DNA from: Pseudomonas nunensis
GTDB lineage: Bacteria; Pseudomonadota; Gammaproteobacteria; Pseudomonadales; Pseudomonadaceae
Direction of reading: 5' to 3'
DNA length: 64,000 nucleotides
Assembly (NCBI RefSeq): GCF_024296925.1
Contig: NZ_CP101125.1
Span: forward strand, 2,110,501-2,174,500
The notes below the pieces were generated by a model that saw only the letters and a list, made by a program, of their open reading frames with translations, searched no databases and was not told the origin of the DNA. Of the stretch, positions 2,277 through 55,250 are shown in pieces. The first letter of the stretch is position 1. Each line of letters opens with the position of its first letter. The translations under genes were made by a program, and so were the position numbers.

Positions 2277-5200
2277 ATGGACGGTAGCCTGATGTTCGAC
2301 AAATCTTCCTTGCGTGGGACGACCTCCGCGCAGCCCAACGCTTTACCCGAAAATCCATCCGACACTGCGGCGCTCGCTTACTGGCGTGAACGGCTGGCCG
2401 ATGCCCCGACGTTGCTGGAGTTGCCCACTGACCGGCCACGGCCGGCGGTGCAGGGCGATCAAACCGCTTCGCATGCGCTGGTGCTGGATGCGCCGTTGAG
2501 CGAAGGGCTCAAGGCGTTAGGTAGGCGTCACGGCAACTCTCTGTTCATGACGTTGCTCGCGGGTTGGGCGGTGGTACTGGCGAGATTGTCCGGTCAGCAC
2601 AAGGTGATGATCGGCGCGCGCACGGGAGATCTCGGCAACACGCTGCCACTGCGTCTTTCCCTGATCGAGGCTCCGTCCACGAGCCAATTGCTCGATCACA
2701 CCCGCGCTGTGCTGCTTGGCGCCGAGGAACATCAGGACCTGCCGTTCGAACAATTGCTCGCGCAACTCAACTCCGAACACAGCCCCGCTTATCATCCGCT
2801 GATCCAGGTGCTGTTCGCCTGGAATCACTCTGAATCACTGCCTGCCGGATTCGACCTGACGCTGGTGCTGGCCGAATCGGAAGGGCGCATCAGCGGCCAT
2901 CTGCATTACGCCGCGGCGTTATTCGACGCCGCGACCATCGAGCGTTTTGCCGGATACCTGAACACGGTTCTGCAGCAAATGATCGCGCAACCCGCATGTT
3001 CGGTGATGGCGCTGGAAATGCTCGACGCCGCCGAACGCCAACAACTTCTGCACGACTGGAACAGCGCAGAGCAACCGTTCGACGCCAACCAATACATACA
3101 CGGTTTGTTCGAAGCCCAAGTCCTGCGCAACCCCGACGCCATCGCCGCCCGATTGAACGACGAGGCGCTGAGCTACGGCGAACTGAACACCCGCGCCAAC
3201 CGCCTGGCCCATCACCTGCGCAGCCTCGGTGTCGGCCCGGACGTGCGCGTCGGGTTGTGCCTGGAGCGCTCGCTGGACATGCTGGTCGGCGTACTGGCGG
3301 TGCTCAAGGCCGGCGGAGCGTATGTGCCGCTCGACCCGACTTATCCATCCGCGCGGCTGGTGCACATGCTCGCCGACAGTGCGCCCGTCGTGGTGCTGAC
3401 CCACGGTCCGTCCGCTGCGGCCCTTGAGCATTCGACCGTGCTGGACATCACCGACACCCGCCCATGGGCGTCGCAGTCACCGAACAATCCTGATCCCCTC
3501 GCTATCGGGCTAACGCCTCGGCACCTGGCCTACGTGATCTACACCTCAGGCTCCACCGGCACCCCGAAAGGCGTGATGGTCGAACACCGTGGGCTGATCG
3601 CCGTCAGCGCCGCGTGGGAAAAACTCTACGCCTTGGGCGAGCCCCTCAATCACCTGCAAATGGCCGGTTTTTCCTTCGACGTGTTCAGCGCCGACCTGAT
3701 CCGTGCGCTGGGTTTCGGCGGCACGCTGGTGCTGTGCCCGCGTGAAACCTTGATGGACCCACCAGCGCTGTATCGCCTGCTGAGCGGGGCGCGCATCGGT
3801 TTCGCCGACTTCGTGCCGGCGGTGCTCAACCCGTTGCTGGCCTGGGTCGAAGAAAGCGCTCACGACCTGTCGTTCATGCACACCGTGGTCTGCGGCTCAG
3901 ACATCTGGACCGCCCACAGCGCCCGGCAATTGCGCCGGTTGTGTGGCGATCACGTGCAAATCGTCCAGGCCTATGGCGTCACCGAAGCGAGCATCGACAG
4001 CACCTGTTTTGAATTCAACACCGACAGCGTGGCCGACGGTGTGTTGCCGATCGGGCGAGCGCTGGCCAACACGCGAATTTACCTGCTGGATGCCTTGGGC
4101 GCACCTGTGCCCGTGGGTGTCGCGGGCGAATTGCATATCGGTGGCGTCGGCGTTGCCCGGGGTTACCTGAACCTGCCACAACTAAGCGCCGAGCGTTTTA
4201 TCGACAGCCCATTTGTGTCTGGCGAGCGCTTGTATCGCAGCGGCGACTTGGCGCGTTATCGGGCGGACGGCAATCTGGAATTCCTCGGCCGCAACGACTT
4301 CCAGGCCAAGCTGCGTGGCTTGCGTCTGGAACTGGGGGAAATCGAGGCGCGTCTGGCGGACATCGCCGGGGTCCGCGAAAGCCTGGTGCTGTTGCGCCAG
4401 GACACCCTCGGCGAATCGCGACTGGTCGCTTATTACTGCGAAAGCCAAGGCGCGGCGCTGAGTCCGCGTTCGCTGCGCAAGCAACTCCAAGTCAGCCTGC
4501 CGGATTACATGGTGCCCACCGCATACGTGCGCCTGGATGCGCTGCCGCTGACCGCCAACGGCAAACTGGATCGCACCGCATTGCCGATGCCGGATGCCGA
4601 GGCCTTCGATCAGCGCGACTATCAGCCGCCGCAAGGTCCACTGGAAATCGCGCTCGCCAACATCTGGGCCGAAGTGCTCGGCGTCGAGCGGGTCGGGCGT
4701 CAGGATCAATTCTTCGCCCTCGGCGGTCACTCGTTGTTGGTGATGCGCGTATTGGCTCAGGTTCGCCAGCAACTCGGTCTGGAAGTGGCCCCTTCGGCGC
4801 TGTTTGCCGCGCCCGTGCTGGAACAGTTCGCCGAACGCCTGAAACTCAACCAGGACAAGGCTCGCGTCGCGATAGCGGCTGTTGAACGGTCGGGCGCGCA
4901 AACGTTGTCGTCTGCCCAGCAGCGCCTGTGGTTTCTCGCACAAATGCAGGGTGGCAACGCGGCGTATCACATGCCGTTGAACCTGCGCTTGCGCGGCCCA
5001 TTGCAAATCGCAGCCCTGGAACGCGCCTTCAATCAATTGGTGGCGCGGCATGAAGCGCTGCGCACCACATTCATCGCGGTTGAAGGGGAAGGGCGGCAAC
5101 TGGTCGCGTCGCTTTGGCAGTTCATCAAGCTGTCGGTGGTTGACCTGCAAGGCCAACCCGAAGCGCTTCTCACGCAATTGATCGACGAAGAGGGCGCGAA

Positions 5201-8200
5201 ACCGTTCGACCTGAGCCGTGGACCGCTGATGCGCGTCAGTCTGGTGCGGCTGGCGGAGGACGAGCATGTGTTGCTGCTGACCCAGCACCACATCATCTCC
5301 GATGGCTGGTCGATGGGCGTGCTCACCCGCGAGTTGGGCTTGCTGTACGAAGCCGCCATTCAGGACCGCGACAATCCGTTGCCGCCACTGCCCGTGCAGT
5401 ATGTGGATTACGCGGTGTGGCAACGCCAGTGGCTGACCGGCGAGGTGCTGGCCGAGCAGAGCCGCTACTGGCGCGACACCCTCAGCGGCGCGCCGGTATT
5501 GCTGGAACTGCCGGCCGATCACAAACGTCCGCCGGTGCAGGATTACCTCGGCGGTTTTGTGCCGCTGGTGTTCGACCCGACGTTGACCGCGCAGTTGAAA
5601 ACTTTGTGCATGCAACAGGGCACCACGCTGTTCATGACCTTGCTCGCGGCGTGGTCGCTGGTGCTGTCGCGCCTGTCCGGGCAAACCGATGTGGTGATCG
5701 GTGTGCCGGCGGCCAACCGTACCCAGCAGGAACTGGAAGGGCTGATCGGTTTCTTCGTCAACACCCTGGCACTGCGCATGACCCGCTCGGGTTCGCCGTC
5801 AGTAGCGCAATGGCTGCAACAGGCACGCGGCGTCGCGCTGGGTGCTCAGGAACATCAGGACCTGCCGTTCGAGCAGGTCGTCGAATTGCTCAACCCGCCT
5901 CGCAGCCTGGCCCACAGTCCGCTGTTCCAGGTGCTGTTTGCCTGGGAGCAGGATCAGGATTCGGATCTGGTGTTGTCGGGGCTTGAGGTCAGCCCGGTCG
6001 AGAGCAGCCATCATGTGGCCAAGTTCGATCTGCAACTGGCGCTGCACGAGCGTGACGGGCAGATTGTCGGCGGTCTGGAATACGCCTCGGGCCTGTTCGA
6101 ACCGGCCACGGTGGCGCAATTCGGCGAGTACCTGCGCCGGGTGTTGACCCAGATGGTCGAGAACCCCGAGCAGCCGTTGACCACGGTTGATTTGCTCAGC
6201 GAAGAACAGCATCAACAGATCGTCCACGACTGGAACCGCACCGAGCGCGACACCTCGGCCATGCCCGATTGTGTGGCGCGGTTTGAAGCCATTGCCCGGC
6301 AAACACCACAGGCAGTGGCGTTGCTCGCGAATGACCGGCAACTGAGTTATGGCGCACTTAATCAGGCCGCCAATCGCCTCGCGCATTACCTGATCGAACA
6401 AGGCGTGCGTCCCGAGCACCGGGTCGGTCTGTGCCTGGAACGTTCGCCGGAAATGGTCATCGGCCTGCTGGCGATCCTCAAGGCCGGCGCGGCGTATGTG
6501 CCGTTCGACCCGGCGTACCCGAGTGAGCGTCTGGCTTTCATGTTCAGCGACGCGGCGCCGACTTTGCTGTTGACTCAATCGGCATTGCGCGACGCTCTGC
6601 CCACGGACACAAATGCCTGCTGTCTGGACACCGATGCGCAGCGCTGGGCGCACTGTCCGGACACCGATCCACGAGTGGCCGTCAGCCCCGACAATCTGGG
6701 CTATGTGCTTTACACCTCCGGCTCCACCGGGCGCCCAAAAGGCGTGGCGCACAACCGCCGCGCGCTGGATAACCTGATCGCCTGGCAGCTTGATCAAGCG
6801 CAAGCACCGGGCCGGGTCCTGCAATTCGCCTCGCTGAATTTCGACGTGTCGTTCCAGGAAATCTGCAGCACTTTGTGTTCCGGCGGCAGCCTGTTGCTGA
6901 TGACCGAAGACAGCCGCAAGGACCTCGCCGCGCTGCGTCCGACCCTGGTGGCCGAAGGCGTGCAGCGGGCGTTCCTGCCGTTTGCCGTGTTGCAGCAACT
7001 CGCCGGACTGACCGAGGCCGACGCGCCGATGCCGGCCGGTGGCTGCGAAATCGTCACGGCGGGCGAAGCCCTGCAAATCAACGATGAACTGCGCGACTTT
7101 GTGCGCGGCCTCGGTGGCGCGCAGTTGCATAACCAGTACGGCCCGACCGAAACCCATGTGGTCAGCCAGTTCAGCCTGTCGTGCAGCGACGCCGAACACT
7201 GGCCGGATGCGCCGCCGATTGGCCGTCCGATCGCCAACGCGCGACTGTACGTGCTCGACGTTGATATGAACCCGGTGCCGGTCGGCGTTGCGGGGGAGTT
7301 GTACATCGCTGGCGCGTGCCTGGCTCGCGGTTACTTGAACCGCCCGGACCTGACCGCCGAACGCTTTGTGCCGGACCCGTTCAGCGCCAAACCCGGCGCG
7401 CGCATGTACCGCAGCGGTGACCTGGCGAAGTTCCAGGCCGACGGCAACGTGCAGTACCTGGGGCGCATCGACCAGCAGGTCAAGTTGCGCGGTTTTCGTA
7501 TAGAACTCGGTGAGATCGACAGCCTGTTGCAACAGCAGCCCGGCGTGCAGGAAGCGGCGGTGTTGCTGCGTGAAGACGTGCCGGGGGACAAGCGTCTGGT
7601 GGCCTACGTGGTCGGCCCGGCGTCCAGCGAAACCCTGCGCGCTGAACTGCAACGGCACCTGCCGGAGCACATGATTCCCTCCGCTTGGGTGTCGATGGCG
7701 CAGTTGCCGTTGACCCGCAACGGCAAGCTCGACCGCCAGGCATTGCCTGCGCCGGAACGCAACGCCGGGGCCACTTACGTCGCGCCGCGCGACGACACCG
7801 AGCAGCGGATGGCCGATATCTGGGCCGAAGTGCTCAAGTGCGAGCGGGTCGGGATTCACGATAACTTCTTCGAACTCGGCGGCCACTCGCTGCTGGCGAC
7901 CCGGATGATCTACGCGATCAACCAGCGCATGGGTGCGCAGTTGTCCTTGAGCAGTCTGTTCAAGACTCCGGTGCTGATGGATCTGGCGGCGCAAGTGCAG
8001 GCCGGGCGCAGCGATGACACGCAAATCGTCCCGGCCTTCCTGGAGATCGAGGCGGATCGCGATGCTCGACATGAGCCGTTCCCGCTGACCGATATCCAGC
8101 AAGCCTACTGGTTTGGTCGCGAAGCCACCGTCAGCCTCGGCGGGGTCAGTGCCCACGGCTACGAAGAACTGCGCATTCCGGATTTCGACGCCGCGCGTTT

Positions 8201-11200
8201 CGAGCAGGCGTTGAATCGCATGATCCAGCGCCACGACATGCTGCGCGTGGTGTTTCTCAGCGACGGCACGCAACAGGTGTTGGAGCAGGTGCCGACCTAC
8301 TGCATGCCCCGCAGTGACTTGCGCGGCGTGCCTGCCGACGTCGCGCAACAGACGCTGCAAGCCACCCGCGAGCGCCAGTCCCACCAAGTGCTGGACGCCA
8401 GTCGCTGGCCGCTGTTCGAGTTCAGCCTGTCGTTGCTCGATGACGGCATCACCCATCTGCATATCAGCCTCGATGCGTTGATCGTCGACGCGGCGAGCAC
8501 ACAGATTCTTGCCCGCGAGCTGATGGCGTTTTACGTTGACCCGAATCTGATCCTGCCCGAACCGGGCTTGACCTTCCGCGATTACGTGCTGGCCGAACAT
8601 CAACTGCGCAGCGGCATTCGTTACGAGCAGGCGCTGAGCTACTGGCGCGAACGAGTCACCAGCCTGGCGCCGGCGCCGGACCTGCCGCTGGTGCGCCAGC
8701 CGGAGAGCATTGCCAATCCGCACTTCACCCGCCGCGACCGCGACATGCCGGCGGCGCAGTGGGCGCAGCTCAAAGCCGTGGCCAAACAGTTTGCGGTGAC
8801 GCCCTCGGTGATGCTCCTGACCGCGTTCAGCGAAGTGCTGGCGCTGTGGAGCCGCCATCCGCGATTCACCCTGAGTTTGCCGCTGTTCAATCGCTTGCCG
8901 TTGCACCCGGACGTCGATGAAATCATCGGTGACTTCACTTCCTTGGTGCTGCTGGAAGTCAGCATTGCCGGAGCTGCGAGTTTCACCGACAAGGCCCGGG
9001 CGGTGCAGGCGCAGTTGTGGCAAGACATCGATCACTCGGTGGTCAGCGGCGTGCGGGTGCTGCGGGAATTGTCCCAGGCCCGTGGCGTGCAGCAGACGGC
9101 GATGCCGATTGTGTTCAACAGCACGTTGTCGGAAGCAGCGCCGGAGCTGGCGGAGTTCAACCTCGCGGACGCGTTGAACGCCAAACACATGCACAGCATC
9201 ACCCAGACCCCGCAAGTGTGGCTCGACCACACCTTGCTGGAGCTGGAAGGACGCTTGCTGTTCAACTGGGACAGCATCGATGAGCTGTTTCCAGCGGGCA
9301 TGATCGAAGAAATGTTCATCGCCTATAACGCGTTGCTGGATCGCCTTTTGGAACCGGCGGCCTGGGAAGCGAGCACGCCGCAATTGCTGCCGATGGCATG
9401 TTTGCCGGCACCCCTAGACACTCAAGAAGCGTTGCCGTTGATGCACGAGTTGTTCGAGCGTCAGGCGCTCACAACGCCGGACGCTGTGGCGGTGATCGCT
9501 GCGCAGCGGCAACTCACCTACGGGCAATTGCGCACGGAGGCACGGTCCCTGGGGGCGCTGCTTCAGGCTGAGGGCGTGATGCCCAATCGACTGGTCGCCG
9601 TGATGATGGAACGCGGCTGGGAACAAGTGGTGGCGACCCTGGCGATTCTCTACGCCGGTGGCGCTTACCTGCCGATTGATCCGACGCTGCCAGCGGAGCG
9701 GGTGCGGCATATTCTTGAGCGCGCCGAAGTCAGCCTGGTGCTGACCCAACCGGCGCTTCTCGGCGTGATCGAGTGGCCCGTGCAGGTCAGCGCCATCGCC
9801 GTGACCGATGACGTCATGGTCGAGCACGCGCCGCTGCAACCGGTCAACGTCGCACCGACCGATCTGGCCTACGTGATCTACACCTCCGGTTCCACTGGCC
9901 TGCCTAAAGGTGTGGTCATCGACCATCGTGGCGCGGTCAACACCTTGCTCGACATCAACCGACGCTTTGCCGTCGGCCCGGCGGACTGTGTATTGGCGAT
10001 TTCGTCGCTGAGTTTCGATCTCTCGGTGTATGACTTCTTCGGCACCCTGGCCGTCGGCGCGGCGGTGGTGGTGCTTGAGCCGCAACTGGCCCTCGACCCG
10101 GCGCACTGGCGGGACTTGATCGAACGTCATCAAGTGAGCCTGTGGAACTCGGTGCCGGCGTTGCTCGGCATGCTGCTTGAATACTTCGAGGGCGAGGGCG
10201 GCACGCTGCCGGCCAGCCTGCGGGTGGCGATGCTTTCCGGTGACTGGATTCCCCTGACCTTGCCGCAACGGCTGTGGGCCTTGCAGCCGACGGCGCAACT
10301 GTTCAGCCTCGGCGGCGCCACCGAAGCGTCTATCTGGTCGATCTGCTACCCGGTACAACACGTTGATCCGGCGTGGCGCAGCATCCCTTACGGCAAGGCC
10401 CTCGATCACCAGCGTTTTTACGTGCTGGATGAAGCCCTGCAAATACGCCCGACCTGGGTCGCGGGGCAGCTGTATATCGGCGGCATTGGCCTGGCTCAGG
10501 GTTACTGGCGCGATGAAAAACTCAGCGCCGGCAGTTTCTTCCCGCACCCGCTGACCCGCGAACGCCTGTACCGCACCGGGGACCTCGGACGTTTGCTGCC
10601 GGACGGCAACATCGAATTCCTCGGTCGCGAAGACAATCAGGTCAAGGTCCAGGGTTATCGCATCGAGTTGGGCGAGATCGAAGCCGCGCTCAATCGTCAC
10701 CCCGGCGTACAAGGTGCCGTGGTGAAAATCCTCGGCAGCACGCTCGGCGAAAAACGCCTGGCCGGCTATGTGCTCAAGGCCGATCCGGCGTTGCAGGCCA
10801 GCGACTTCGTCCAGTACCTCGCGGACAAACTGCCGGCGTACATGGTGCCGTCGTCGTTTACCTTTGTGGACGCCTGGCCATTGTCGTCTAACGGCAAGGT
10901 CGACAAGAAACGCCTGCCGGAGCCTTCGCAACAGCAGGAGTCCGGCCCGGCGCTGGAAGTCGAGGGCGCGCAGGAACAACGGCTGGTGGCGATTGTGCAA
11001 GGCGTGCTCAAGCGTGATGCCATCGCCGGCAACGCCAACCTGCTGAACCTCGGCGCGACGTCGATCGACATCGTGCGCATCAGTAATGCGTTGTCCAGCG
11101 AACTGCGTTTCCGTCCGCACGTGGCGCAACTGTTGGCGCAGCCGACGTTGCTGCACCTGATCGGCATGTACCGCCAAAGCCTGGCGCGCCAGGAACTGGT

Positions 11201-11993: not shown

Positions 11994-14900
11994 ACGCCTA
12001 TCAATTGCTGGAGCTGTTCGCGCGTCACGCCGTGGTCCTTGAAGTGGACGGCGACAAGCTGCGCTGCAAGGCGCCTCGCGGGTTTCTGACAGAAGAGATG
12101 TTGCAAGCGCTCAAGCTGCACAAGCCTGAACTGATTGCGTTGCTCGGTGGCCATGACGCCGCTGCGATTCCTTCAAGGGCCGGCGGCGAAACGGATTGGC
12201 CGCTGTCGTTTTCGCAGCGGCAACTGTGGTTTCTCGATCAACTGGAACCGGGCAACGCGTTCTACAACGTGCCCACGGCGGTGACCCTCAAGGGGCCGCT
12301 GGAAGTGCCGCTGCTGGAGCGCGCACTGAACGAAATGATCCAGCGCCACGAAATCCTGCGCACCACGTTTTGCAGTGTGGATGGCGAACCGCGTCAAGTG
12401 GTCCATTCGATGGACGACACCTCACTGTGGCGAGGGAGCTTGCTCCCGCTGGACTGCGCAGCAGGCCCATCTTCGGGGCCGCTTCGCGCCCCGGCGGGAG
12501 CAAGCTCCCTCGCCACAGGTTTGGTGTTGGGCGTGACCGACTTGCGCGACCTGCCAGCCGCCGAACGCGAGCAGCAGGTCCGAATGGCAGTCGATCACGA
12601 TGCCCGCGCTCCATTCGATCTGGCCACCGGCCCACTGTTACGAGCCGCGTTACTGCGCCTGGCCGACGATGAATATCTGTGGCTGTACAGCGTGCACCAC
12701 ATCGTCGCCGATGGCTGGTCAATGGGCGTGATCCTGCACGAAATCGCCACCCTGTACGGCGACTATCTGCGCGGCGAACCGTCGAGCCTCGCGCCGTTGC
12801 CTGTGCAATACGCCGACTACGCCTGCTGGCAGCAGCAACGTCTCGGTGGTGATGCGTTAACCGCGCAACTCGAGTACTGGCGGCGCACCCTGACCGACGC
12901 GCCGGCACTTTCGACCATCCCCGCCGACCGGCCACGGCCACTGGTGCAACGTTATGCCGGCGCCACGTTCAGCTCATCCCTCGACGGCAACACCCTGCGC
13001 GAACTCAATGGGCTGGCCCGACAAACTCAGGGCACTTTGTTCAATGTGTTGATGGGCGCATTGGCCGTGTTGCTGTGGCGACACAGCGGTCAGCAGGATC
13101 TGTGCATCGGCACGCCATTCGCCAACCGCAGTAGCCCGGAAATCGAGCCGCTGATCGGGCACTTCGTCAACACTTTGGTGGTCCGCCAACACCTGGATCC
13201 GCAGCAAACCTTCGCCGAACTGCTGCGTGACGTGCGCGGGCAGATGCTCGACGTTCACGCCCATCAGGACGTGCCGTTCGATCGGGTGGTCGAAGCCGTC
13301 AACCCGCCGCGCGATACCGCTCATTCGCCGTTATTCCAGGTGATGCTGGTATTGCAAAACACCCCCGGCGGCGCGGTGGAAATGCCCGGTTTGAGCCTGT
13401 CGCCCTACAGCACCAGCAGCGCCACGGCCAAGTTCGACCTGGCGTTTGAATGGGTTGAACGAGAAGGGCGTCTGAACCTGTTGGTGGAGTACAACACCGA
13501 CCTGTTCGACGTAGCGACCATCGAACGCCTGAGCGGTCATTACCGGCAGTTGCTCGAACACATCGCCCGAGACCCCAAGCAGCCGATTAGCGCGTTGTCG
13601 CTGTTGGCCGAGGCCGAGCGTGAGCAAATCCTGGTGGACTGGAACCGTTCCGAACCACTGACGCAACCAGCCGATTGCGTGCACCGATTGTTCGAAGCCC
13701 AGGTCGCGCGCAACCCGCAAGCCTGTGCGGTGGCGTTCGAAGCTGAAACCCTGAGCTACGGCGAATTGAATGCCCAGGCCAATCGCCTGGCGCAGCATTT
13801 GCGCAGCCTCGGCGTCGGCCCGGACGTGCGCGTGGCGGTGTGTGTCGAGCGTTCGCTCGAATTGCCGGTGGCGTTGCTGGCGGTGCTCAAGGCCGGCGGC
13901 GCGTATGTGCCGCTGGACCCGAATTACCCGGTCGGGCGCCTGAGCCACATGCTCAGCGACAGCACCCCGGCGGTGCTGCTGACCCTCGGCCCGGCGCACG
14001 CGATATTGCGCCAGGCCCAGCAAGGTTCAACCTGGGAAGCGCCGGTGCTCGACCTCAAGGCCGACGCCGCGCTTTGGGCCGGTCTGTCGCCGGACAACCC
14101 CGACCCGCGCAGCGTCGGTGTCACGCCCGATCACCTCGCCTACGTGATTTACACCTCGGGCACCACCGGGATGCCCAAGGGCGCGATGGTCGCCCATCGC
14201 GGCCTGAGCAATCTGCTGCTGTGGTGCTCCCAGGTCTGCGGCGAAACCGGGGTGATGCTGCACAAGATTCCCTTCGGTTTCGACGCCTCGGCCTGGGAAA
14301 CCTTCTGGCCGCTGGCCACGGGCGGGCGCCTGGTTGTCGCGCGTCCCGGTGGTCATCTGGAGCCTGGCTATATGGCGAAAGTGGTGCGCGAGCAGCGGGT
14401 CACGGCGCTGGTGTTTGTGCCAGCGATGCTGCAACTGTTTCTTGAAGTCGATGAGGTCAGCCTGTGCACCGAGCTGACCGACGTCTTCAGCGGCGGCGGT
14501 GAGCTGTCGCCAGCCTTGGCCCGGCGTTTTCAGGAACGGCTGCCGCATGCCCGTTTGCACAACGTCTATGGCCCGACCGAAACCACGGTGATCAATAGCG
14601 TCTGGACCCTGGAGCCCGGCGCCGAAGTCCCGGCCCTGCAAGTACCGATTGGCCGGCCGATCGCCAACAATCGTTTCTACGTGCTGGACGAGCGCGATGC
14701 GCCGGTGCCGGTGGGCGTGACCGGGCAATTGCACATCGGCGGTGTGGGTGTCGCGCGCGGTTATCTGGGACTGGCGCAACTCACGGCCGAGCGCTTTATC
14801 GATAACCCGTTCGTGCCGGGTGACCGGCTCTATCGCAGCGGCGATCTGGCGCGTTATCGCCCGGATGGCCAGCTGGAATTCCTCGGTCGCAACGACTTCC

Positions 14901-16204: not shown

Positions 16205-19200
16205 TGAATCCACAGATGCTGACGTTGCTCGCACAATTTGCCGGACAAGTGCGGCGCGATCCCCAAGCCCTGGCGGTCATCGATCAGCAGGTACGCCTGA
16301 CCTACAGCGAACTGGCCAGCGCCAGCGAGCGCATTGCCCGGGGTTTACAGGCCCGGGGCGTGCAACCGGGCCAGTCAGTGGCGCTGTGCATGCCGCGTTG
16401 CTGGCAGTGGCTCGCGGCGATACTCGGCGCGCTGAAAGTCGGCGCGGTGGTGGTGCCGCTGGACCGTGCCAGCCCTTTGAAACGCCGGGACTTGATGCTT
16501 GCCGACGCCGGCTGCGTAGGGCTGATCACTCTGGATGAAGAGTGGACCCCGGCAACCGCGCTTTGGCAGGCGAATGTCGAGGCGCTGCTGGATCACCCGG
16601 ACCACCCGCCACAACCCTTGGCCGACACGTTTGCCGAGGTGAGTTTCCTGTTCTACACCTCGGGCACCACCGGCACCCCGAAAGCCGTGGAAGTCGGCGA
16701 GCGGGGCTTGCTGCGCCTGACGCAAACCGAAGGCTATATCGAGATTCGCCCGAAGGACCGTTTTGCCTGCCTGTCGAATCCGGCCTTCGATGCGTGCAGC
16801 TTTGAACTGTGGGCGCCGCTGCTCAACGGTGGTTGCTGCGTGATAATTGCCGATCACGACTTGCTGGACGCGCAACGTCTGGCCCGTGTGCTGGAAGAAC
16901 AGCGGGTCGATAACCTGTTCATGACCGTTTCGCTGTTCAACACCTTGAGCGCGGAATGTCCCGCCTGCTTCGCCAGCCTGCGCCAAGTGCTGATCGGCGG
17001 CGAACAAATCAGCGCCGCCGCCGTGCGCGCCTGGTATCGGGCGAATCCCGGCAGTCAGTGCCAGATTTTCAATGTCTACGGCCCCACCGAATGCACTACG
17101 TTTGCGTTGTGCTATCCGATTGCCCGTGACTTCAGCGGCCCGTTGGTGCCGATTGGCCGGCCATTGCCGGACACTGGCGTGCAGGTTTTGGATGAGCAGC
17201 AACGGCCGGTGGCGGTTGGTGAAGTCGGCGAGTTGTACCTGAGTGGCAGCGGTGTCGCCCGTGGCTATCGCAACCGTGCGGAAGATACCTCCCGCAATTT
17301 CGTGCGCCTGGCCAACCTCGATGGGGGCGCCCATGTGCACTACCGAACCGGTGATCGGGTGCGGGTCAACGCCGAAGGGCTGGTCGAGTACATCGGTCGG
17401 GTTGATCGGCAGGTGAAGGTCCGTGGTTTTCGCATCGAACCGGGGGAGGTGGAGCTGCAGATTCTTGAGCATCCGCAGGTGGCGCAGGCGTATGTCTGCA
17501 CCCGGCGACAGGCTGCCGAAGATCACCAGTTGCTGGCGTTTATCGTGCCGCGCGACGGTTTGGAGTACGCCGAATTTGACGCCCATCTGCGGGCGCGACT
17601 GGCATCCTACATGCGCCCACACCAGTTGTTTTTGCTGGAGCGTCTGCCGCTGACCGCCAATGGCAAGATCGACCGTGAGACCTTGCTGGCACAGTCGTTG
17701 ACGCCTTGGCGGCCAATGGTCGAGCAGCGTAATTTCGAGGGTTCACCGGCCCTGAACTGGTTGCTGGCACAGGTTCGTTCGCTGTTAGGGCAACCGGCCC
17801 TCAATGCGCACGACGACTGGCTCGGCAGTGGCGGCGATTCGCTCAAGGCCATGCGTCTCCGTTCGGCGATTCGCACCCATTGGCAGCGCGAGATTGCCAT
17901 CGCTACGCTGTTGAGCGAGCCGTTCGCGGCATTGGCCGAACACCTGATCGGCCAACAGGCCAACTTTATCTATCCTCCCGCGCCAGCCATCAGCAGCGCA
18001 CGCCGTCTGCCGGCCACCGCCGAGCAGCGCCGCTTGTGGCTGATGCAGCAGCGCACACCGACTTCGACGGCTTATAACGTGCCGCTGATTCTGCATCTGG
18101 CTGCCGGTGTCGATGTGTCGGCGCTGGCGTATGCCGTGGGGCAACTGGCGGCGCGTCATCCGGGGCTGCGCACGGCATTCGTAACCGGCGCCGATGGCCT
18201 CGATCAAGTGATTGCCGAACAAGGCCCGGTTTGTCGCACCTTCGAACCGGGGCACTTCACCGAAGACACCTGGCAAGCGTTCGCGGCGTTGGTGTTCGGC
18301 ACGCCGTTCGATCTGGCCACGCCGACGCTGTTCCAGGCCTGGCTGCTGCCGTTCGCCGATGGCAGCTGCCGGTTGCTGCTGAACCTGCACCACATCATCG
18401 TCGATGGTTGGTCGATGAACCTGTTGTTCGACGACCTGACGCAGCTGTATGAAGACGCCGTGCGCGGGCGCGTCAGCCCTGAACCGACACCACAACTGAC
18501 CACGCTGGAATTCGGCCTGTGGCAGGGGCAGTGGAGCGTCGACCCGCATTACCGCGACCAGCGCCGGGCTCTGGCGCAATTGCACCGCCAGCAGGAAGCG
18601 CCGTCGCCAACGCTGATGCCGATGCGTGCCGTCGGCCCGGAAGCCAGGCTCTATCGTGCACCCTTGGGCAACCTGCGCAGCGCGGCCCTTGAGCGTTTTT
18701 GCAGCCAGCAGCGACTGACCCGTTTTGAAGTGCTGTTCAGTGTCTTCGCCTGGAGCCTTTACGCCCTGACCGGGAGTGAACGCCCACGCATCGCCAGCCC
18801 GGTATCGAACCGGCCGCTGGCGGAGTTCGAACAGACGCTGGGCATGTTTGCCAACACCGTGCTGATCCCGACCACCGTCGATAATGCCTTGGCGCTGGGT
18901 GAGCAATTACGGCGCCAGACCGCCACCGTGCGCGAGGTGCTGGGGTTGCAGGACGTCGCGTTGGCGGATGTGGTGGAAGACCTGCGGTTATCGTCAGGCA
19001 CGCCGTTGTTCGACTTCATGTTCGTGCTGGAAAACACCGATTACGCCGCGCTGGCGGGTTCCGGCTTGCAAGCGACGCTGGAATTCAGCGGGCCGTTGCA
19101 GGCGAAATGCCCGCTGACCTTGCTCGTCGTAGGGGCTGAATGCTGGTGGGAATATCAGTGCAGCTACTTCGATGAAGCGCAGATGCACGCGGTGAATGAG

Positions 19201-22200
19201 CTGTTCTGCCGTGGCCTCGACCTGCTGCTGGAATCCCCGGCAGCAGCCCTCGACGATCTGCTCAGTCCTTATCGCCATCACCTGCCGGCAGCCAGCGAAG
19301 GCGCCAACGGTACGCCGCCGTTCAACACCTTGGCCGACTGGTTCGAGCATCAGTTACTTTGCACACCGGACGCCACCGCGCTGGTCGCCGGCCAGCAGCG
19401 CTTGAGCTATGCCGAACTGAATGGGTTGGCCGACACCTTGACGGCGATCTTGATTGAACGTTATCCGCTGCCGACTCAGGACAACACGCCGCTGCATGTG
19501 GTGATGTTTCTTGAAGCCTCGGTCGAGCACATCGTCGCGTTGCTGGCCCTGGCCAAACTCAACCTGACCGCCGTGCCGCTGGATCCCGGGTATCCGCTGG
19601 CGGTACAGCGTCAGGTGCTGGAGCAAGCGAATCCGCATTGCCTGTTGTTCAGCACCGCGACCGAGGCGGCACTGGAAAACCTTGATGCCAAGCGCTGTGC
19701 CCGGCATCGGGTGGACCTGAGCGCCGAAGCCCAAGCGTTCGAACGTCCGCGTCATGCCGGTGAACGCGCGTTGTACACGCTGTTTACCTCCGGCTCCACT
19801 GGCACGCCCAAGGGTGTGCAAGTGCCGGATCGGACCCTGTGCAACCTGTTGCAATGGCAGCGCGCTGAAGGCCAGTTGCCGGCGAAATCGGTGACCTTGC
19901 AATTTTCCATGTTGTCGTTCGATGTGTCGTTTCAGGAGATCTTCGGCACCTTGTGCGGCGGCGGCACCTATCACCTGATCACCCCGCGCTGGCGCCAGGA
20001 TGCTCAGGCGTTGTTGGCGTATCTGGTTGAAGCGCGGATCGAACGTTTGTTCCTGCCGTGCGTGGCGTTGCAGCACCTGGCGCAAACCGCCGTCGCCCAA
20101 GGCGTGTACCCGCCGACGTTGCGCGAAGTGGTCACGGCGGGGGAGCAATTGCTGTGCACCGATGCGCTGAAAACCTGGTTCGGCGGTTTGCCGCTGGCGA
20201 CGCTGTTCAACCACTACGGCCCCACGGAAACCCACGTGGTCAGCGCGTATCGCTTGCCGGCAACTGTCCGTGACTGGCCGTTGCGGGCACCGATTGGCCA
20301 CGCCGTCAGCAATGCCCGATTGTTGTTGGTGGACGAGCACGACCGCCCGGTGCCGAACGGCAGCCGTGGCTACCTGCTGGTGGCCGGGCCGATGATTTCC
20401 CGCTGCTACCTAGCCGATCCGGCGCTGAATACGGCGCGGTTTATCGAACTGCCCCAAGCTGAAGGTGATACTCGACTGTTCTATCGCACCGGCGACTTGG
20501 CCTGGGCTGACCCTGAAGGTTGCCTGCACTATCTGGGGCGCGACGACCAGCAGATCAAACTCAGTGGTCATCGCCTGGAACTAGGGCAGATCGAAGCGGC
20601 GCTGATGCAGGTGCCGCAAGTGATCAACGCGGTAGTGACGGTCCAGGCCGATCCGCCGAGCCTGATCGCGTACCTGCAACTGGATGGTGAACCGGCGACG
20701 GCTCAGACGCTGGATCGTCAGGTCGCCCGGCAACTGCCGGCCCACGTGCGCATCGATGAGTACCGACGGATCGACGCCTGGCCACGCACGCCCAGCGGCA
20801 AGATCGACCGCAAGGCCTTGAGCGGGTTGGGCGAGGCGTTGGAGCGCCGTCGTGCGACAGCTCCGGCCACTGCGTTGAGCCCGCTGGAGCAGCAACTGAG
20901 CGAGTTGTTCAGCGCGGTGATCGGCCGGGACATCGAGCCCGATCAAACCTTCTTCGAAGCCGGCGCCACTAGCCTTGGCCTGATGCGCTTGCATGCCCGC
21001 TACAACCAGGAGCTGCCACACAACGTTGCGATGGCCGACCTGTTCGAGCAAGTGACGGTGAGACGCCTCGCGGCGCACTTGTCCAGGGCGCCATCGGCCC
21101 CGGTCGAGCGGGTACGCCAAGCAGATGTCGGCCAGCAACCGATGGCGATCATCGGCATGGCGGTCAACGTCGCCGGGGCGCAGAACCTCGATGAGTTCTG
21201 GGCGATGGTGCAGGGCGGAGAGTTGGGTATCGAGCATTTCGAGGCGGCCGAAGGGCGCGTCGGTGCCCGCAGTCAACTCGCCGGAATGCTCGATTTCGAC
21301 CCCGAATATTTCGGCATCAGTCGTCAGGAAGCGCGCCTGATGGACCCGCAACAACGGCATCTGTTGATGGCCTGTGTGCAGGCGTTGCAACACGCGGCGA
21401 TCACGCCGTCCGCCGAAGGTCCGCGCATCGGCCTGATTGCCAGTTGTGGCGAAACCACTTACTTCCAGCAGATGCTGCGCGAGACCGCTGACGGTGATTT
21501 GCCGGACGGTTTCCAGATGGCGCTGCACCACGACAAGGACTTCCTGGCGACCAAAGCCGCCTACCACCTCAACCTCACCGGTCCGGCCATGAGCGTGCAG
21601 GCGGCGTGCGGCAGTTCGCTGATCGGCGTGCACCTGGCCAGTGCGATGCTGCGTCAGGGTGACAGTGACGTGATGCTCGCGGCCGGGGTGCTGATCGATC
21701 CGACGTTGACCGACGGTTATCGCCATCGTTCGCAGCACATCTTCTCTAGTGACGGTCTGTGCCGACCTTTCAGTGATGATGCCAGCGGCACCATCGGCGC
21801 CAGTGGTTATGGGGTGGTGGTGCTCAAACCCCTGGCTAAGGCTCGCGCCGATGGCGACCGGATTTATGCGCTGGTCGAAGCCTCGGCGCTGAACAACGAT
21901 GGCCGCGACAAGATGAGCTACACCGCGCCTTCGGTAGCGGGGCAGAGTGCGGTAATTAGCGAAGCCTTGGCCAAAGCCGGGCTGACCGGCGCCGACATCG
22001 GTTACATCGAAGCCCACGGCACCGGCACCTTGCTCGGTGATCCGGTCGAGGTCGCGGCGTTGAGCAAGGCGTTCGGCGATGCCCCAACCGGCGGTTGTGC
22101 GTTGGCCTCGGTGAAAAGCCAGATCGGCCATTTGGGCGCGGCGGCCGGGGTTGTCGGGTTGATCCGTGCCAGCCTCGCGGTGTTCCATGGCGTGGTGCCG

Positions 22201-25200
22201 CCGAACCTTGGTTTTGGCCGGGTCAATCCGCAAATCGACCTCGCGAATTCGCCGTTTTATGTACCGACCACGTCGCGGCCCTGGCCTGAAGGTCGGCGGC
22301 GTTTGGCGGGGGTCAGCAGCTTTGGCATCGGTGGGACTAATGCGCATGTAATTGTCGGTGCGGCGCAGCACGATGAAGTGTTGGCTGAGGACGTTTTGCC
22401 GTGCCTGATGATCTCGGCCCACAGCCGTTCGGCGTTGCTGCGCGATGTAGCGGCGATTCAAGGGTATTTGAACGCTTTCCCCGAGCGTCACTCAGCGGTG
22501 CTGGGTCACCTGCAATCAGGGCGTCGTCAATTGCGCTGGCGCTTGGCGATGGCGTATCGGCCGGGGGAGGTGTTGCACACTTCGTCGATCAAGGAGGTGA
22601 GCGTGTCGGGCGTGCAATTGAAAGCCGATGGGCACAAAACCCAGGCGCTGATAGACGCGTGGTATGACGGTGCAACCATCGACTGGCCACAGCGCTCGGC
22701 GCCACCGCCGTGGGATCTGCCGCCATCATCCTTCGATCTGGAGACCTTCCGTTTTCAGGCCGCAGTTGAACCCGAAAAAGCGATGACCGTTGAGCGACAA
22801 CCCTTGGCCGACTGGTTCTACCAACGGCAGTGGGTGCGCGTGCGGCGGTTGAACACGGTGGTGGCTACCGAGCGGCGTGAAACGCTGGTCATCTGTAGCA
22901 ACGAAACGCTCGACACGACATTGCTGGAGAGCCTGAACACCGTCTATCAACGGGTCATTCACCTGCGTGCCGGCAACGGCTTCAAGCGACTCGGCACCGA
23001 CCGTTTCGAGCTTGATCCGTTGGACGCGCAGGCCTTGTCGCGCCTGCTCGATGAATTAGCTGAGCCCGCATTGGGTGAGCTGGACTGGCTGCACGCCTTG
23101 CCGCTGTCGGTAACAGGTGCGGTCAATGAGCAAAGCCTGGCGGCGGCGCAGTGGGCCGGTCTGGACACGGTCAGCGCCTTGATGCAGGCCTGGGGGCAAG
23201 CCTCGCGCGCGACGACGTTGCGACTGTGGCTGATGTCGTGGCAGGCGTGTCCGGTAGACGGCGAAGTGATACGTCCCGAACTCGCGGCGCTGGCCGGGAT
23301 TACCGAAGTGGTGCCCCAGGAATACCCGGTGCGCTGTCACTGGCTGGATTGGCCGACGTTCCGCATGGGCGCGCAGGAGCTGGCGACGTTGCTCGCTGAT
23401 CCGGCGTCTTTGCCTCGGCGCATGGCGATTCGTGATGGTTATCTCTGGCAGCCACGGTTGATTGCCAGTCCGTTACCGGCGAGCGTTCCGATGGCGAACA
23501 GACTGCCCATGGACGGCATGTTTCTGGTGTTGGGCGGCACGGGCGGTATCGGTCGCACGCTAGCCGAACACCTGTTGCAGGCGCCGCAACGGCGCATCGT
23601 CGTCCTGTCGCGCCGGGGCGAATTGCCGGCAGCACTGGCGGCGTATGGCTCGCGGATCGACTGTGTACAGGCCGATATCGCCGACCTGGCCAACTGGCCC
23701 GCCGTGCTCGAACAACTGGCCCGGTGCTACGGCCGTTTTGCCGGGGTGATCCACGCCGCCGGTGTCGGTGCAGGCAGTCTGATTCGTCAGCGTGACGCCC
23801 GCCAGTTGGGCGAGGCCATGGCGGCCAAGACCCGTGGCATGCTCGCGGTCGAGGCCCTGATCTCAACGATGAACCCCGGGTTTGTCCTGTACTGCTCGTC
23901 AATGTCGGCGCTGTTCGGCGGCGCGGGGCATATGGATTATGCGGCCGCCAGCGCGTTGCTCGACGGCTTCGCCCATTACCGACCGAGCGCCGCCAGCGAT
24001 TGCGTGCGCCTGGGCATCAACTGGGACATCTGGCGCGACATCGGCATGGCCACCACCAGCGGCACCGGCGATGCCGCGCATCAGGAGCACCTGACGGTCG
24101 GGATGTCGGCAGAAGAGGGCTGCCGCGTGTTCGACCTGGCCATGACGACGCAACTGCCACAACTGCTGATCTCCACCACCGGTATCGACACGGCACGGCG
24201 TTTTTATCCGGTTCGGCATGGCGCGGTAATTGCGCCGGTGAATGTGCCGGAAGTGCTGGATCTGCACAGCCATCTGCACGAAAGCCTGTGCAAATGGTTG
24301 GGCGTCACCCGCCTCGATGACGACGATTCGCTGTACGAACTGGGGGCGGATTCGCTGACGTTGCTCGACCTGATCGATGAACTGCAAGCAGCCACTGGCG
24401 TGGTGTTCCAGCTCTCGCAATTCAGTCACAAGGTCAGCCTGCAAGAGATCCTGGCGCTGGTGGATGCTGCCGCCGTCTGTGTGACGCCAAACGCGCCAGA
24501 CACCTGGGCCGATGCGGTGCAGATTGATCAGTGGCACGCGGGTGCCGGTCGTGAGTGGCTGTACCTGATTCACCCGGTGGGCGGCGATGTTCAGGCCTAC
24601 CGTGAATTGGTTTCAGCGCTGCATCCCGATCTGGGCGTGTGCGTGATCGCCGATCCGGCGTTGCGTCTGCCGGACTTACCGAACATCAGCCTCGCCGAGC
24701 GTGCTGAATTTTACTTGAAGGCAATTCAGGCCCGGCAAACCAACGGTGGTGCCTGGCGTCTGGCCGGGTGGTCGTTCGGCGCCTGGGTGGCGCAGTCGAT
24801 GTGCAGCCTGGCGCAGTCATCCGGATTCAGGCAGCCGCTGCTGTACCTGATCGACCCGCCCGCGCCGGATGCCGGGGCAGAACTGGCGAGCATCGATGAT
24901 CAGGCGATCGGGCAGGTGTTCCAACGCGAGTTTGCCCAGCGTTGGCCGGACGCCGTCGGCCGGGCATTGCCTGAAGACCGGCAGGTCTATATGCAGCGCC
25001 TGACCCGTTGCTGCAACCACAACATCGCCAGCATGGCATCCTTCCAGCCACCGCCGTTGACGAACACTTCAGTGCGGATGTTCATCGCCGCGCAAGCCAA
25101 TCCCTATGGCGTGGGCAATGCCTGGAACGCCGAAGACCTGAAACACGCCTGGCAGGATTTGCTCCCGCAGTTACAGAGTTGGCAGCTGCTGGACACCGAT

Positions 25201-25293
25201 CACTACGGCATCGTCGCAGGCCAGTGGGCGCGAGTGATTGCCGAAATAATCAGCACCGATTCGCAACCCGAGGAGGGCGATCAGCATGAGTGA
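16201..25293 (+). CDS. Hybrid NRPS-PKS: A-T-C-A-T-KS-KR-ACP-TE lacking an acyltransferase
   Basis: Megasynthase of 3030 residues. It begins directly with an A domain (about 15-495), code DAFFLGVTFK, close to branched-chain (Val/Ile) codes, and T1 (WLGSGGDSLKAMRL, about 545), making a loading module. Next: C domain with HHIIVDG (about 732); A2 (about 1045-1540), code DVQFVAHVVK, proline-like; T2 (FFEAGATSLGLM, about 1585); ketosynthase (about 1645-2055) with active site QAACGSSL (Cys about 1803), EAHGTGT and GHLGAAAG histidines; a linker that keeps the usual KS-to-AT start (LPCLMISAHSRSALLR) but has no AT; ketoreductase (VLGGTGGIGRTLAEHLL about 2443, catalytic Tyr in HMDYAAASA); ACP (LYELGADSLTLLDL, about 2715); thioesterase (GWSFGAW, about 2860). 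No LDD motif is seen in the KR. Predicted output: Val/Ile-Pro extended by malonate and reduced to a statine-like beta-hydroxy acid, with malonyl supplied in trans. Start codon ATGATG overlaps the NRPS2 stop. Confidence 0.9.
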   Translation: MMNPQMLTLLAQFAGQVRRDPQALAVIDQQVRLTYSELASASERIARGLQARGVQPGQSVALCMPRCWQWLAAILGALKVGAVVVPLDRASPLKRRDLMLADAGCVGLITLDEEWTPATALWQANVEALLDHPDHPPQPLADTFAEVSFLFYTSGTTGTPKAVEVGERGLLRLTQTEGYIEIRPKDRFACLSNPAFDACSFELWAPLLNGGCCVIIADHDLLDAQRLARVLEEQRVDNLFMTVSLFNTLSAECPACFASLRQVLIGGEQISAAAVRAWYRANPGSQCQIFNVYGPTECTTFALCYPIARDFSGPLVPIGRPLPDTGVQVLDEQQRPVAVGEVGELYLSGSGVARGYRNRAEDTSRNFVRLANLDGGAHVHYRTGDRVRVNAEGLVEYIGRVDRQVKVRGFRIEPGEVELQILEHPQVAQAYVCTRRQAAEDHQLLAFIVPRDGLEYAEFDAHLRARLASYMRPHQLFLLERLPLTANGKIDRETLLAQSLTPWRPMVEQRNFEGSPALNWLLAQVRSLLGQPALNAHDDWLGSGGDSLKAMRLRSAIRTHWQREIAIATLLSEPFAALAEHLIGQQANFIYPPAPAISSARRLPATAEQRRLWLMQQRTPTSTAYNVPLILHLAAGVDVSALAYAVGQLAARHPGLRTAFVTGADGLDQVIAEQGPVCRTFEPGHFTEDTWQAFAALVFGTPFDLATPTLFQAWLLPFADGSCRLLLNLHHIIVDGWSMNLLFDDLTQLYEDAVRGRVSPEPTPQLTTLEFGLWQGQWSVDPHYRDQRRALAQLHRQQEAPSPTLMPMRAVGPEARLYRAPLGNLRSAALERFCSQQRLTRFEVLFSVFAWSLYALTGSERPRIASPVSNRPLAEFEQTLGMFANTVLIPTTVDNALALGEQLRRQTATVREVLGLQDVALADVVEDLRLSSGTPLFDFMFVLENTDYAALAGSGLQATLEFSGPLQAKCPLTLLVVGAECWWEYQCSYFDEAQMHAVNELFCRGLDLLLESPAAALDDLLSPYRHHLPAASEGANGTPPFNTLADWFEHQLLCTPDATALVAGQQRLSYAELNGLADTLTAILIERYPLPTQDNTPLHVVMFLEASVEHIVALLALAKLNLTAVPLDPGYPLAVQRQVLEQANPHCLLFSTATEAALENLDAKRCARHRVDLSAEAQAFERPRHAGERALYTLFTSGSTGTPKGVQVPDRTLCNLLQWQRAEGQLPAKSVTLQFSMLSFDVSFQEIFGTLCGGGTYHLITPRWRQDAQALLAYLVEARIERLFLPCVALQHLAQTAVAQGVYPPTLREVVTAGEQLLCTDALKTWFGGLPLATLFNHYGPTETHVVSAYRLPATVRDWPLRAPIGHAVSNARLLLVDEHDRPVPNGSRGYLLVAGPMISRCYLADPALNTARFIELPQAEGDTRLFYRTGDLAWADPEGCLHYLGRDDQQIKLSGHRLELGQIEAALMQVPQVINAVVTVQADPPSLIAYLQLDGEPATAQTLDRQVARQLPAHVRIDEYRRIDAWPRTPSGKIDRKALSGLGEALERRRATAPATALSPLEQQLSELFSAVIGRDIEPDQTFFEAGATSLGLMRLHARYNQELPHNVAMADLFEQVTVRRLAAHLSRAPSAPVERVRQADVGQQPMAIIGMAVNVAGAQNLDEFWAMVQGGELGIEHFEAAEGRVGARSQLAGMLDFDPEYFGISRQEARLMDPQQRHLLMACVQALQHAAITPSAEGPRIGLIASCGETTYFQQMLRETADGDLPDGFQMALHHDKDFLATKAAYHLNLTGPAMSVQAACGSSLIGVHLASAMLRQGDSDVMLAAGVLIDPTLTDGYRHRSQHIFSSDGLCRPFSDDASGTIGASGYGVVVLKPLAKARADGDRIYALVEASALNNDGRDKMSYTAPSVAGQSAVISEALAKAGLTGADIGYIEAHGTGTLLGDPVEVAALSKAFGDAPTGGCALASVKSQIGHLGAAAGVVGLIRASLAVFHGVVPPNLGFGRVNPQIDLANSPFYVPTTSRPWPEGRRRLAGVSSFGIGGTNAHVIVGAAQHDEVLAEDVLPCLMISAHSRSALLRDVAAIQGYLNAFPERHSAVLGHLQSGRRQLRWRLAMAYRPGEVLHTSSIKEVSVSGVQLKADGHKTQALIDAWYDGATIDWPQRSAPPPWDLPPSSFDLETFRFQAAVEPEKAMTVERQPLADWFYQRQWVRVRRLNTVVATERRETLVICSNETLDTTLLESLNTVYQRVIHLRAGNGFKRLGTDRFELDPLDAQALSRLLDELAEPALGELDWLHALPLSVTGAVNEQSLAAAQWAGLDTVSALMQAWGQASRATTLRLWLMSWQACPVDGEVIRPELAALAGITEVVPQEYPVRCHWLDWPTFRMGAQELATLLADPASLPRRMAIRDGYLWQPRLIASPLPASVPMANRLPMDGMFLVLGGTGGIGRTLAEHLLQAPQRRIVVLSRRGELPAALAAYGSRIDCVQADIADLANWPAVLEQLARCYGRFAGVIHAAGVGAGSLIRQRDARQLGEAMAAKTRGMLAVEALISTMNPGFVLYCSSMSALFGGAGHMDYAAASALLDGFAHYRPSAASDCVRLGINWDIWRDIGMATTSGTGDAAHQEHLTVGMSAEEGCRVFDLAMTTQLPQLLISTTGIDTARRFYPVRHGAVIAPVNVPEVLDLHSHLHESLCKWLGVTRLDDDDSLYELGADSLTLLDLIDELQAATGVVFQLSQFSHKVSLQEILALVDAAAVCVTPNAPDTWADAVQIDQWHAGAGREWLYLIHPVGGDVQAYRELVSALHPDLGVCVIADPALRLPDLPNISLAERAEFYLKAIQARQTNGGAWRLAGWSFGAWVAQSMCSLAQSSGFRQPLLYLIDPPAPDAGAELASIDDQAIGQVFQREFAQRWPDAVGRALPEDRQVYMQRLTRCCNHNIASMASFQPPPLTNTSVRMFIAAQANPYGVGNAWNAEDLKHAWQDLLPQLQSWQLLDTDHYGIVAGQWARVIAEIISTDSQPEEGDQHE

Positions 25294-25471
25294 GACCAAC
25301 CCGCAATTCGAGGTGGTACGCAACGAGGAAGGCCAATACTCCCTGTGGCCGCTGGGCAAGCCAATGGCCAATGGTTGGACTGAGGTGGGGCAACGCGGGG
25401 AACGGCAGGTTTGCCTGGATTACATCGCTGAACACTGGACCGATATGCGGCCGCGTTCGCTTCAGGATTGA
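25286..25471 (+). CDS. MbtH-family protein
   Basis: Small cofactor-like protein of 61 residues that binds A domains and aids their folding and activity. The family signature is complete: QYSLWPLGKPMANGW, then the G-rich turn, CLDYIAEHWTDMRP and a short tail. The ATG lies inside the NRPS3 stop region (overlap of 8 bases) and follows GAGGAGGGCGATCAGC, so it is translated with the synthetases. It is the only MbtH in the window and could serve the six A domains of this operon; whether the distant Ser-Pro synthetase also uses it is unknown. Confidence 0.97.
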   Translation: MSETNPQFEVVRNEEGQYSLWPLGKPMANGWTEVGQRGERQVCLDYIAEHWTDMRPRSLQD

Positions 25472-25484
25472 ACATCGCCCCCCA

Positions 25485-25574
25485 TGTGGGAGCGGGCTTG
25501 CTCGCGAAAGCGGCGGCACAGTCAACATTGATGTTGCCTGATACACCGCCTTCGCGAGCAAGCCCGCTCCCACA
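25485..25574. repeat. REPIN (GTGGGAGCGGGCTTGCTCGCG family)
   Basis: Paired inverted REP sequences in the gap between the MbtH gene and the dioxygenase: left arm TGTGGGAGCGGGCTTGCTCG, right arm ending CGAGCAAGCCCGCTCCCACA, separated by a short AT-richer centre. Same family as those at 26503 and 53923. It may act as an mRNA stabilising or attenuating hairpin after the synthetase transcript. Confidence 0.93.
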
Positions 25575-25615
25575 GGGTTTGGGGATCGGCCATACAAATA
25601 ATAAGGTGAGGGAAC

Positions 25616-26485
25616 ATGGATCAATTGGCATTGAAGGCTATCGAGCGCATCGCGGGGCAATCCCGTGCGCCCTACAACAGCATCACAGTCGACCGTCTGA
25701 CACCGATCATTGGTGCCGAAGTCGGTGGAGTCGACCTGTCGCAACCGCTGAGCGAAGAACAACTCACAGAAGTCCGTCGGGCCTTCCTGGAAAACCACGT
25801 ATTGGTCTTTCGCGACCAGCACCTGACCGTGGACCAGCACAAAGCCTTCGGCCGATTGTTCGGTGAACTGCGAGCCTTGCCGGTGGAGGACATCGATGGC
25901 GATGACCCCGAACTGGTGGTGATCCGCGCCAACGCGCAATCGCGGTTCGTCGCCGGGGAAACCTGGCACACCGACGGTACGGCGGACCTGGAACCGTCCA
26001 TGGGCTCGATGCTGTACGTCAAGGAAACCCCGGCCATCGGCACCGGCGGCGATACGCTGTTTGCCAACATGCACCTGGCCGTGGAAATGCTGTCACCGAC
26101 GATGCAGCAGTTTTTGGGTGAATTGACTGCGATCCATGATGGCGAGATTCCGTGGAAGGGCTTCCAGCCACCGGCCAATCTGCCCAAGACCGAACACCCG
26201 GTGGTGGTCCGTCACCCTGAAACCGGGCGCAAGACGCTGTTCGTCAATTCCGGGTTTACCTCGCACATCGTCCAGTTGTCCGGCGGCGAGAGCCAGATGC
26301 TGTTGAACATGCTGTTCGATCTGATCGCCCGCGAACCGATCCTCAGTTGCCGCGTACGCTGGGAGCCCAACACCCTAGTGTTCTGGGACAACCGCTGCAC
26401 CCAGCATCACGCGGTCTGGGATTACTTCCCGCATTCGCGCTACGGCGAACGCGTGACGATCCTGGGCAAACAACCCAAACCTTGA
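25616..26485 (+). CDS. TauD/TfdA-family Fe(II)/2-oxoglutarate dioxygenase
   Basis: Predicted non-haem iron oxygenase of 289 residues. The iron-binding HxD is seen in ETWHTDGTADLEPSMGSML (about 122-124) and the distal histidine lies in RCTQHHAVWDYFPHSRYGER (about 262), followed by the arginine that holds 2-oxoglutarate. The N-terminal core (ITVDRLTPIIGAEVGGVDL, FRDQHLTVDQHKAFGRLFG) is typical of TauD. The start at 25616 follows AAGGTGAGGG. It lies downstream of the MbtH gene in the same direction with only a REPIN between, so it is a plausible tailoring hydroxylase for an amino acid or the finished peptide. A stand-alone role in sulfonate use is possible but less suited to this context. Confidence 0.88.
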   Translation: MDQLALKAIERIAGQSRAPYNSITVDRLTPIIGAEVGGVDLSQPLSEEQLTEVRRAFLENHVLVFRDQHLTVDQHKAFGRLFGELRALPVEDIDGDDPELVVIRANAQSRFVAGETWHTDGTADLEPSMGSMLYVKETPAIGTGGDTLFANMHLAVEMLSPTMQQFLGELTAIHDGEIPWKGFQPPANLPKTEHPVVVRHPETGRKTLFVNSGFTSHIVQLSGGESQMLLNMLFDLIAREPILSCRVRWEPNTLVFWDNRCTQHHAVWDYFPHSRYGERVTILGKQPKP

Positions 26486-28363: not shown

Positions 28364-28455
28364 CCAATGCTCCTTGCGCGATCGAAAAGGGACAGGCTTT
28401 TTTACGCGGCGCGCCGGCAAAGATCAATGCAAAGGTGAAACAACCGCGAGGTGCC

Positions 28456-53754: not shown

Positions 53755-53856
53755 AATGTTTTTCAACTCCCTGAAAACGGTGATTCCCACATCATGCAAA
53801 TGCCAATGTTGTGCAGATTCTAGTCGTGTGTGGGGAAACTGCTTGCATCAACAGCG

Positions 53857-53893
53857 AAAAGCCCCGAAACCTGAGAAAGGCGTCGGGGCTTTT
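53857..53893 (-). terminator. Bidirectional hairpin terminator downstream of braC
   Basis: Stem AAAAGCCCCGA with TCGGGGCTTTT around about 15 bases, flanked by A and T runs so it could act on either strand. On the minus strand it would end the braABC transcript before the kinase promoter. Confidence 0.75.
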
Positions 53894-53922
53894 ATTTCAT
53901 CTTGAAGGCACTACACATCCCC

Positions 53923-54012
53923 TGTAGGAGCGGGCTTGCTCGCGAAAGCGTCGTATCAGCCAATACTGATGGCGACTGACACACCGCCTTCGCGAGCAAG
54001 CCCGCTCCCACA
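53923..54012. repeat. REPIN between terminator and braC
   Basis: Inverted pair with arms TGTAGGAGCGGGCTTGCTCG (one change from the usual TGTGGGAG) and CGAGCAAGCCCGCTCCCACA; same family as 25485 and 26503. It lies just after the braC stop, on its 3' side. Confidence 0.92.
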
Positions 54013-55189: not shown

Positions 55190-55250
55190 GCCGTTCCACC
55201 TGTTTCGAGCCCGGATTGACCGGGCGTTGAGTTGTGACCGTCGGTGACGG

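Follow-up and report, generated by a model that had tools for sequence, protein, structure and literature searches.

The stretch of DNA analysed here, referred to as the window, comprises 64,000 nucleotides of Pseudomonas nunensis (NZ_CP101125.1, 2,110,501-2,174,500) and carries a biosynthetic gene cluster at window positions 2277-26485. The genes are named here after their homologues in the pip cluster discussed below. On the plus strand, open frames for three large synthetases, pipA (2277..11993; 3238 amino acids), pipB (11990..16204; 1404 amino acids) and pipC (16201..25293; 3030 amino acids), follow each other with a 4-base overlap at each junction. The end of pipC is in turn overlapped by an open reading frame for an MbtH-like protein (25286..25471), which matched PF03621 with 64.1 bits, above the cut-off, and pipE (25616..26485; 289 amino acids) encodes a TauD-type dioxygenase according to Pfam. 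Open frames and Pfam matches thus confirmed the three overlapping megasynthase genes, the MbtH protein and the dioxygenase that a preliminary description of this DNA had reported. Beyond the end drawn there, two further genes are located on the minus strand: a gene for an MFS transporter, a possible exporter (26604..27848), and pipH, encoding a GNAT N-acetyltransferase (27848..28420). The MFS gene also adjoins PipE in the stretches L088 and L091 and lies 1.8 kb off in L090; the stretches L087 and L089 showed no such gene.

Pfam identified three adenylation (A), three condensation-type and three T domains and one nitroreductase (Ox) domain in PipA, TubC_N, C, A, T and TE domains in PipB, and two A domains, one C domain, three T domains, KS, KR and TE in PipC. 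The order of the repeated domains was derived from Pfam positions together with motifs, with some of the T domains positioned by visual inspection, and reads C-starter remnant-A1(Arg)-T-C-A2(Pro)-T-Cy-A3(Cys)-T-Ox for PipA, TubC_N docking-C-A4(Met by homology)-T-TE for PipB and A5(Ile/Val)-T-C-A6(Pro)-T-KS-KR-T-TE for PipC. The Cy motif DxxxxD occurs at PipA residue 2066. The sequence of PipA has no HHxxxDG motif before A1, where only half of a C-starter domain remains. Pfam did not match the AT family (PF00698) in PipC; the family was found at two places in the P. nunensis genome, neither of them inside the window. The TE serines are located at residue 2858 of PipC and residue 1244 of PipB. 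When PipA, the one synthetase examined in this way, was searched against NCBIfam, no particular pathway emerged: the best models for whole synthetases (PRK05691, SolG, AusA, MxcG and EntF) all remained under their cut-offs, and general A-domain and ligase models passed theirs with scores summed over the three A domains.

A cluster of the same make-up has been described in P. entomophila L48 (record PSEEN_RS12600-RS12635), where pipA-H direct the production of pseudotetraivprolide (PMC12828459, published December 2025). The cluster had previously been called unrecognised and without a match to a named Pseudomonas product, a claim which does not hold in view of that report. Pseudotetraivprolide, a detoxin relative with a protective effect on Bacillus cereus against blasticidin S, consists of Ac-Arg-Pro-thiazole-Met in ester linkage with a reduced Ile/Val-Pro ketide; Arg, Pro and the thiazole are evident from the synthesis section of the paper and Met from sulfoxide derivatives (PMC12828459). 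According to the same study, PipA and PipB produce the tetrapeptide, PipC joins Ile (to a minor extent Val), Pro and malonyl with FabD acting as trans-AT, the ester bond is made by the PipB-TE, and PipE, PipH and PipDFG are responsible for hydroxylation, N-acetylation and O-acetylation, respectively (PMC12828459). The tetrapeptide alone is pseudotetratide A, which was reported in 2019 (PMC6972681).

The window was compared domain by domain with the published cluster by way of the sequence of P. entomophila COR5. In all likelihood, COR5 harbours the published cluster, because its PipG possesses S46, C47, H51, T238 and E296 and its PipF (GTG start) S18, D208 and H211, all eight of which are residues named in the paper (PMC12828459). 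The proteins from the window were identical to those of COR5 at 74.6% (PipA), 75.8% (PipB) and 69.2% (PipC) of positions, aligned over nearly the whole length, and at 86.8% and 65.4% for PipE and PipH, respectively. One residue number in the paper could not be placed, namely Ser-2856, given as the essential TE serine where PipB is discussed (PMC12828459). PipB of COR5, with only about 1370 residues and its TE motif near residue 1215, is too short for this number, and counting from the Met starts tried puts the TE serine of COR5 PipC at 2848 or 2849.

The specificity codes of the six A domains were taken at nine positions, leaving out the conserved tenth (Lys), and read DVADVGAID (A1), DVQFVAQVV (A2), DLYNMSLIW (A3), DAWVFGVVI (A4), DAFFLGVTF (A5) and DVQFVAHVV (A6). 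They agree at the nine positions with DVADVGAIDK (basic) and DLYNMSLIWK (Cys) as quoted in the preliminary description, and its forecast of a basic residue, Pro, a Cys-derived thiazole, a hydrophobic residue, Val/Ile, Pro, a reduced ketide and a trans-AT fits the published product. The main text of the paper gives no A-domain codes (PMC12828459); those of COR5 equal the six codes of the window except for one residue in 54 (DVQYVAHVV instead of DVQFVAHVV in A6). A cluster of the same gene order might also yield a new product if one or more A domains chose different amino acids, and for A4 the code DAWVFGVVI is all that the sequence tools used returned, with no specificity assigned. However, the A4 code is identical in all 31 Pseudomonas relatives (see below), COR5 included, and in the complete rows none of the other codes deviates from that of the window in more than two residues, so that a changed product of this kind appears highly improbable. 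Rows were incomplete where a frame or contig is broken: L006 lacks C5 and has A3 and C6 only in part, L012 lacks C5, and L022 has neither A1 nor C6. By homology, A4 would accept Met.

Taken together, we are highly confident that the cluster is a pip (pseudotetraivprolide) cluster and thus a detoxin/rimosamide-like NRPS/trans-AT PKS system. With the cluster of L48 it has in common two NRPS genes and one NRPS/PKS gene, the kinds of domains, two TEs, a PKS module lacking an AT, the lack of a dedicated trans-AT in the cluster, PipE and PipH. It differs from the L48 cluster in possessing the MbtH gene, the MFS gene next to pipH and the half C-starter remnant, in lacking pipD, pipF and pipG, and in a repeat inserted in pipB. 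Against this identity may be held that PipH is only 65% alike and that the insertion of 34 residues in the C domain of PipB could impair or alter this copy. The comparison names a cluster that could not be named by reading the raw sequence.

Catalytic steps and product can be proposed by homology with the published work. PipA and PipB would assemble Arg-Pro-thiazole-Met, the Cys being cyclised by the Cy domain and oxidised by the Ox domain, while PipC would assemble Ile/Val-Pro, elongate it with a single malonyl unit, which FabD loads in trans, and reduce the extended ketide to a beta-hydroxy acid. The ketide hydroxyl would then be esterified with the tetrapeptide by the TE of PipB, and the product would be freed by the TE of PipC. 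PipH is predicted to acetylate the N-terminus and PipE to hydroxylate the ring of the C-terminal proline. As pipDFG are absent, the expected end product would be the hydroxylated, non-O-acetylated form (4d of PMC12828459).

A scan for relatives yielded 40 loci, of which the 31 from Pseudomonas (L001-L031, including COR5 as L027) were followed; L032-L040, non-Pseudomonas or short loci, were set aside. Three of the 31 loci are incomplete or interrupted. In the assemblies L006 (PipA and PipC) and L012 (PipC), the frames are interrupted. Closest in PipA were UYIF39 (L004), P. reinekei (L019), dw_612 (L002) and P. frederiksbergensis 38F7 (L001). For a structure alignment, 22 of these 31 relatives were used alongside the window. 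Among 298 genomes of the genus, 22 had a homologue of PipE with an E value of 1e-120 or better, that of P. nunensis included, and a plasmid collection searched with pipC returned no match. In 24 comparisons (pipA, pipB, pipC and pipE with six of the 31 relatives) dN/dS ranged from 0.034 to 0.181, indicating that the four genes are under purifying selection. The presence of relatives of the three synthetase genes in 31 other Pseudomonas loci together with the low dN/dS excludes a chance arrangement.

The accessory genes assign the cluster to a sub-type. Searches for pipG (GSCFA), pipF and pipD in the P. nunensis genome gave no match for any of the three, and the same queries served as controls in relatives: GSCFA was matched in the genomes of 14 of the 31, and the COR5 PipF and PipD queries matched in 3 of the 8 relatives' genomes (out of 31) used for this purpose. 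As the paper reports the same absence of pipDFG in strains of P. viridiflava and P. syringae (PMC12828459), the lack of these genes is compatible with membership in the pip family. P. syringae DSM 50272, without pipDFG, has 4d as its end product, as does P. viridiflava DSM 11124, which possesses a truncated C-starter and an MbtH gene and no pipDFG (PMC12828459). Going by this description, DSM 11124 displays the same combination as the window, i.e., MbtH, half a C-starter and no pipDFG; the other P. viridiflava loci (L008, L011 and L031) are 71-80% identical to the window in the three proteins. An MbtH gene follows pipC in 19 of the 31 loci, L022 being cut short; it was found neither in the locus of P. 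viridiflava L011 nor, unlike in the window, in that of COR5. The window thus adds a one-contig genome to the sub-type lacking pipDFG and bearing MbtH.

The published work further states that pipH accompanies the lack of a C-starter (PMC12828459). A PipH homologue with E < 1e-78 was present in the genomes of 27 of the 31 relatives, with one or two internal stops indicated for 15 of these strong matches, and none of the 27 relatives has HHxxxDG before A1. No strong PipH match was found in the genomes of L017, L018, L021 and L022; the first three carry HHxxxDG in the C domain before A1, and the contig of L022 starts inside PipA. This distribution agrees with the statement in the paper, and the clusters of L017, L018 and L021 may make an N-acylated version. 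These three are loci of P. gingeri and P. fuscovaginae.

Within the region of pipB that encodes the condensation domain, an inverted repeat of 92 bases lies in frame at 12426..12517 (plus strand), which we take to be REPIN-like. With its edges it encodes PipB residues 141-174, i.e., 34 extra residues, and the alignment of 32 PipB proteins has a gap at this position in all 31 relatives, so that only the window has them. Similar sequence occurs at at least 40 places in the P. nunensis genome, that in pipB included and each in both orientations (80 matches); this is a lower bound, as 40 of 222 candidates were scored. The possibility that the repeat breaks the frame was rejected, since the frame is open throughout.

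Although the cluster is a homologue of pip, the repeat might have disabled the C domain of PipB, in which case the strain would make no more than the PipC part (ivprolide, 1a), if anything. The uniqueness of residues 141-174 among the aligned proteins would be consistent with such a loss, and so would the match to the best solved condensation-domain chain, which the insertion splits in two (residues 10-91 and 144-495, counted within the stretch searched), as well as the pipB dN/dS in comparison with L004, at 0.137 for the first 520 aligned codons and 0.065 for the remainder. However, the frame is kept and HHxxxDG is intact downstream of the repeat. In addition, dN/dS of the first part is also higher with all five other relatives (0.099 and 0.058 in the rest for L001), so that a relaxation specific to this lineage is not indicated. 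In an AlphaFold model of the C domain with a mean pLDDT of 61.5, residues 85-117 and several other stretches fell below 50; the former largely cover the insertion (82-115 in model numbering) and sit between strands 74-79 and 122-125, with helices and strands present on either side, albeit in a model of modest quality. We therefore regard a disabled C domain as unlikely and rather suggest that the insertion forms a tolerated loop. Still somewhat less probable appears a functional role, in which the mobile REPIN-like repeat would have been co-opted, with the frame kept, into a 34-residue C-domain loop that alters PipB with respect to docking, rate or products, the assembly line being intact in other respects. 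A literature search on REPINs in coding sequences returned the word REPIN in none of the matches listed, which is no proof of absence. The repeat in pipB provides a natural test of the load that a loop in a C domain can bear.

A hybrid protein of the PipC type and a dioxygenase of the PipE type are the signature of the detoxin, rimosamide, chitinimide and pseudovibriamide families (PMC12828459), which, as judged from their descriptions, differ from the window in the N-terminal part. Pseudovibriamide B is described as an antidote to blasticidin S (PMC12911931). The main text of a pangenome study of P. syringae uses neither the word detoxin nor the word rimosamide (PMC12171316). Cluster type, product and sub-type are already in print.

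A second cluster is located on the minus strand at window positions 54029-63892. It consists of genes for an FAD-dependent monooxygenase (54029-55189), a two-module NRPS with the order C-A-T-C-A-T-TE (55251-62489) and a glycosyltransferase (62624-63892). Read by eye, the codes of the NRPS are Ser-like (DVWHLSLID) and Pro-like (DVQFNAHVV). In gene content, the set corresponds to that given for brabantamide in PMC4493835. Between the two clusters, at 51922-53799 on the minus strand, a histidine-kinase-like protein with a DAHL domain is encoded, around which the GC content is lower (0.531 at 52001-54000).
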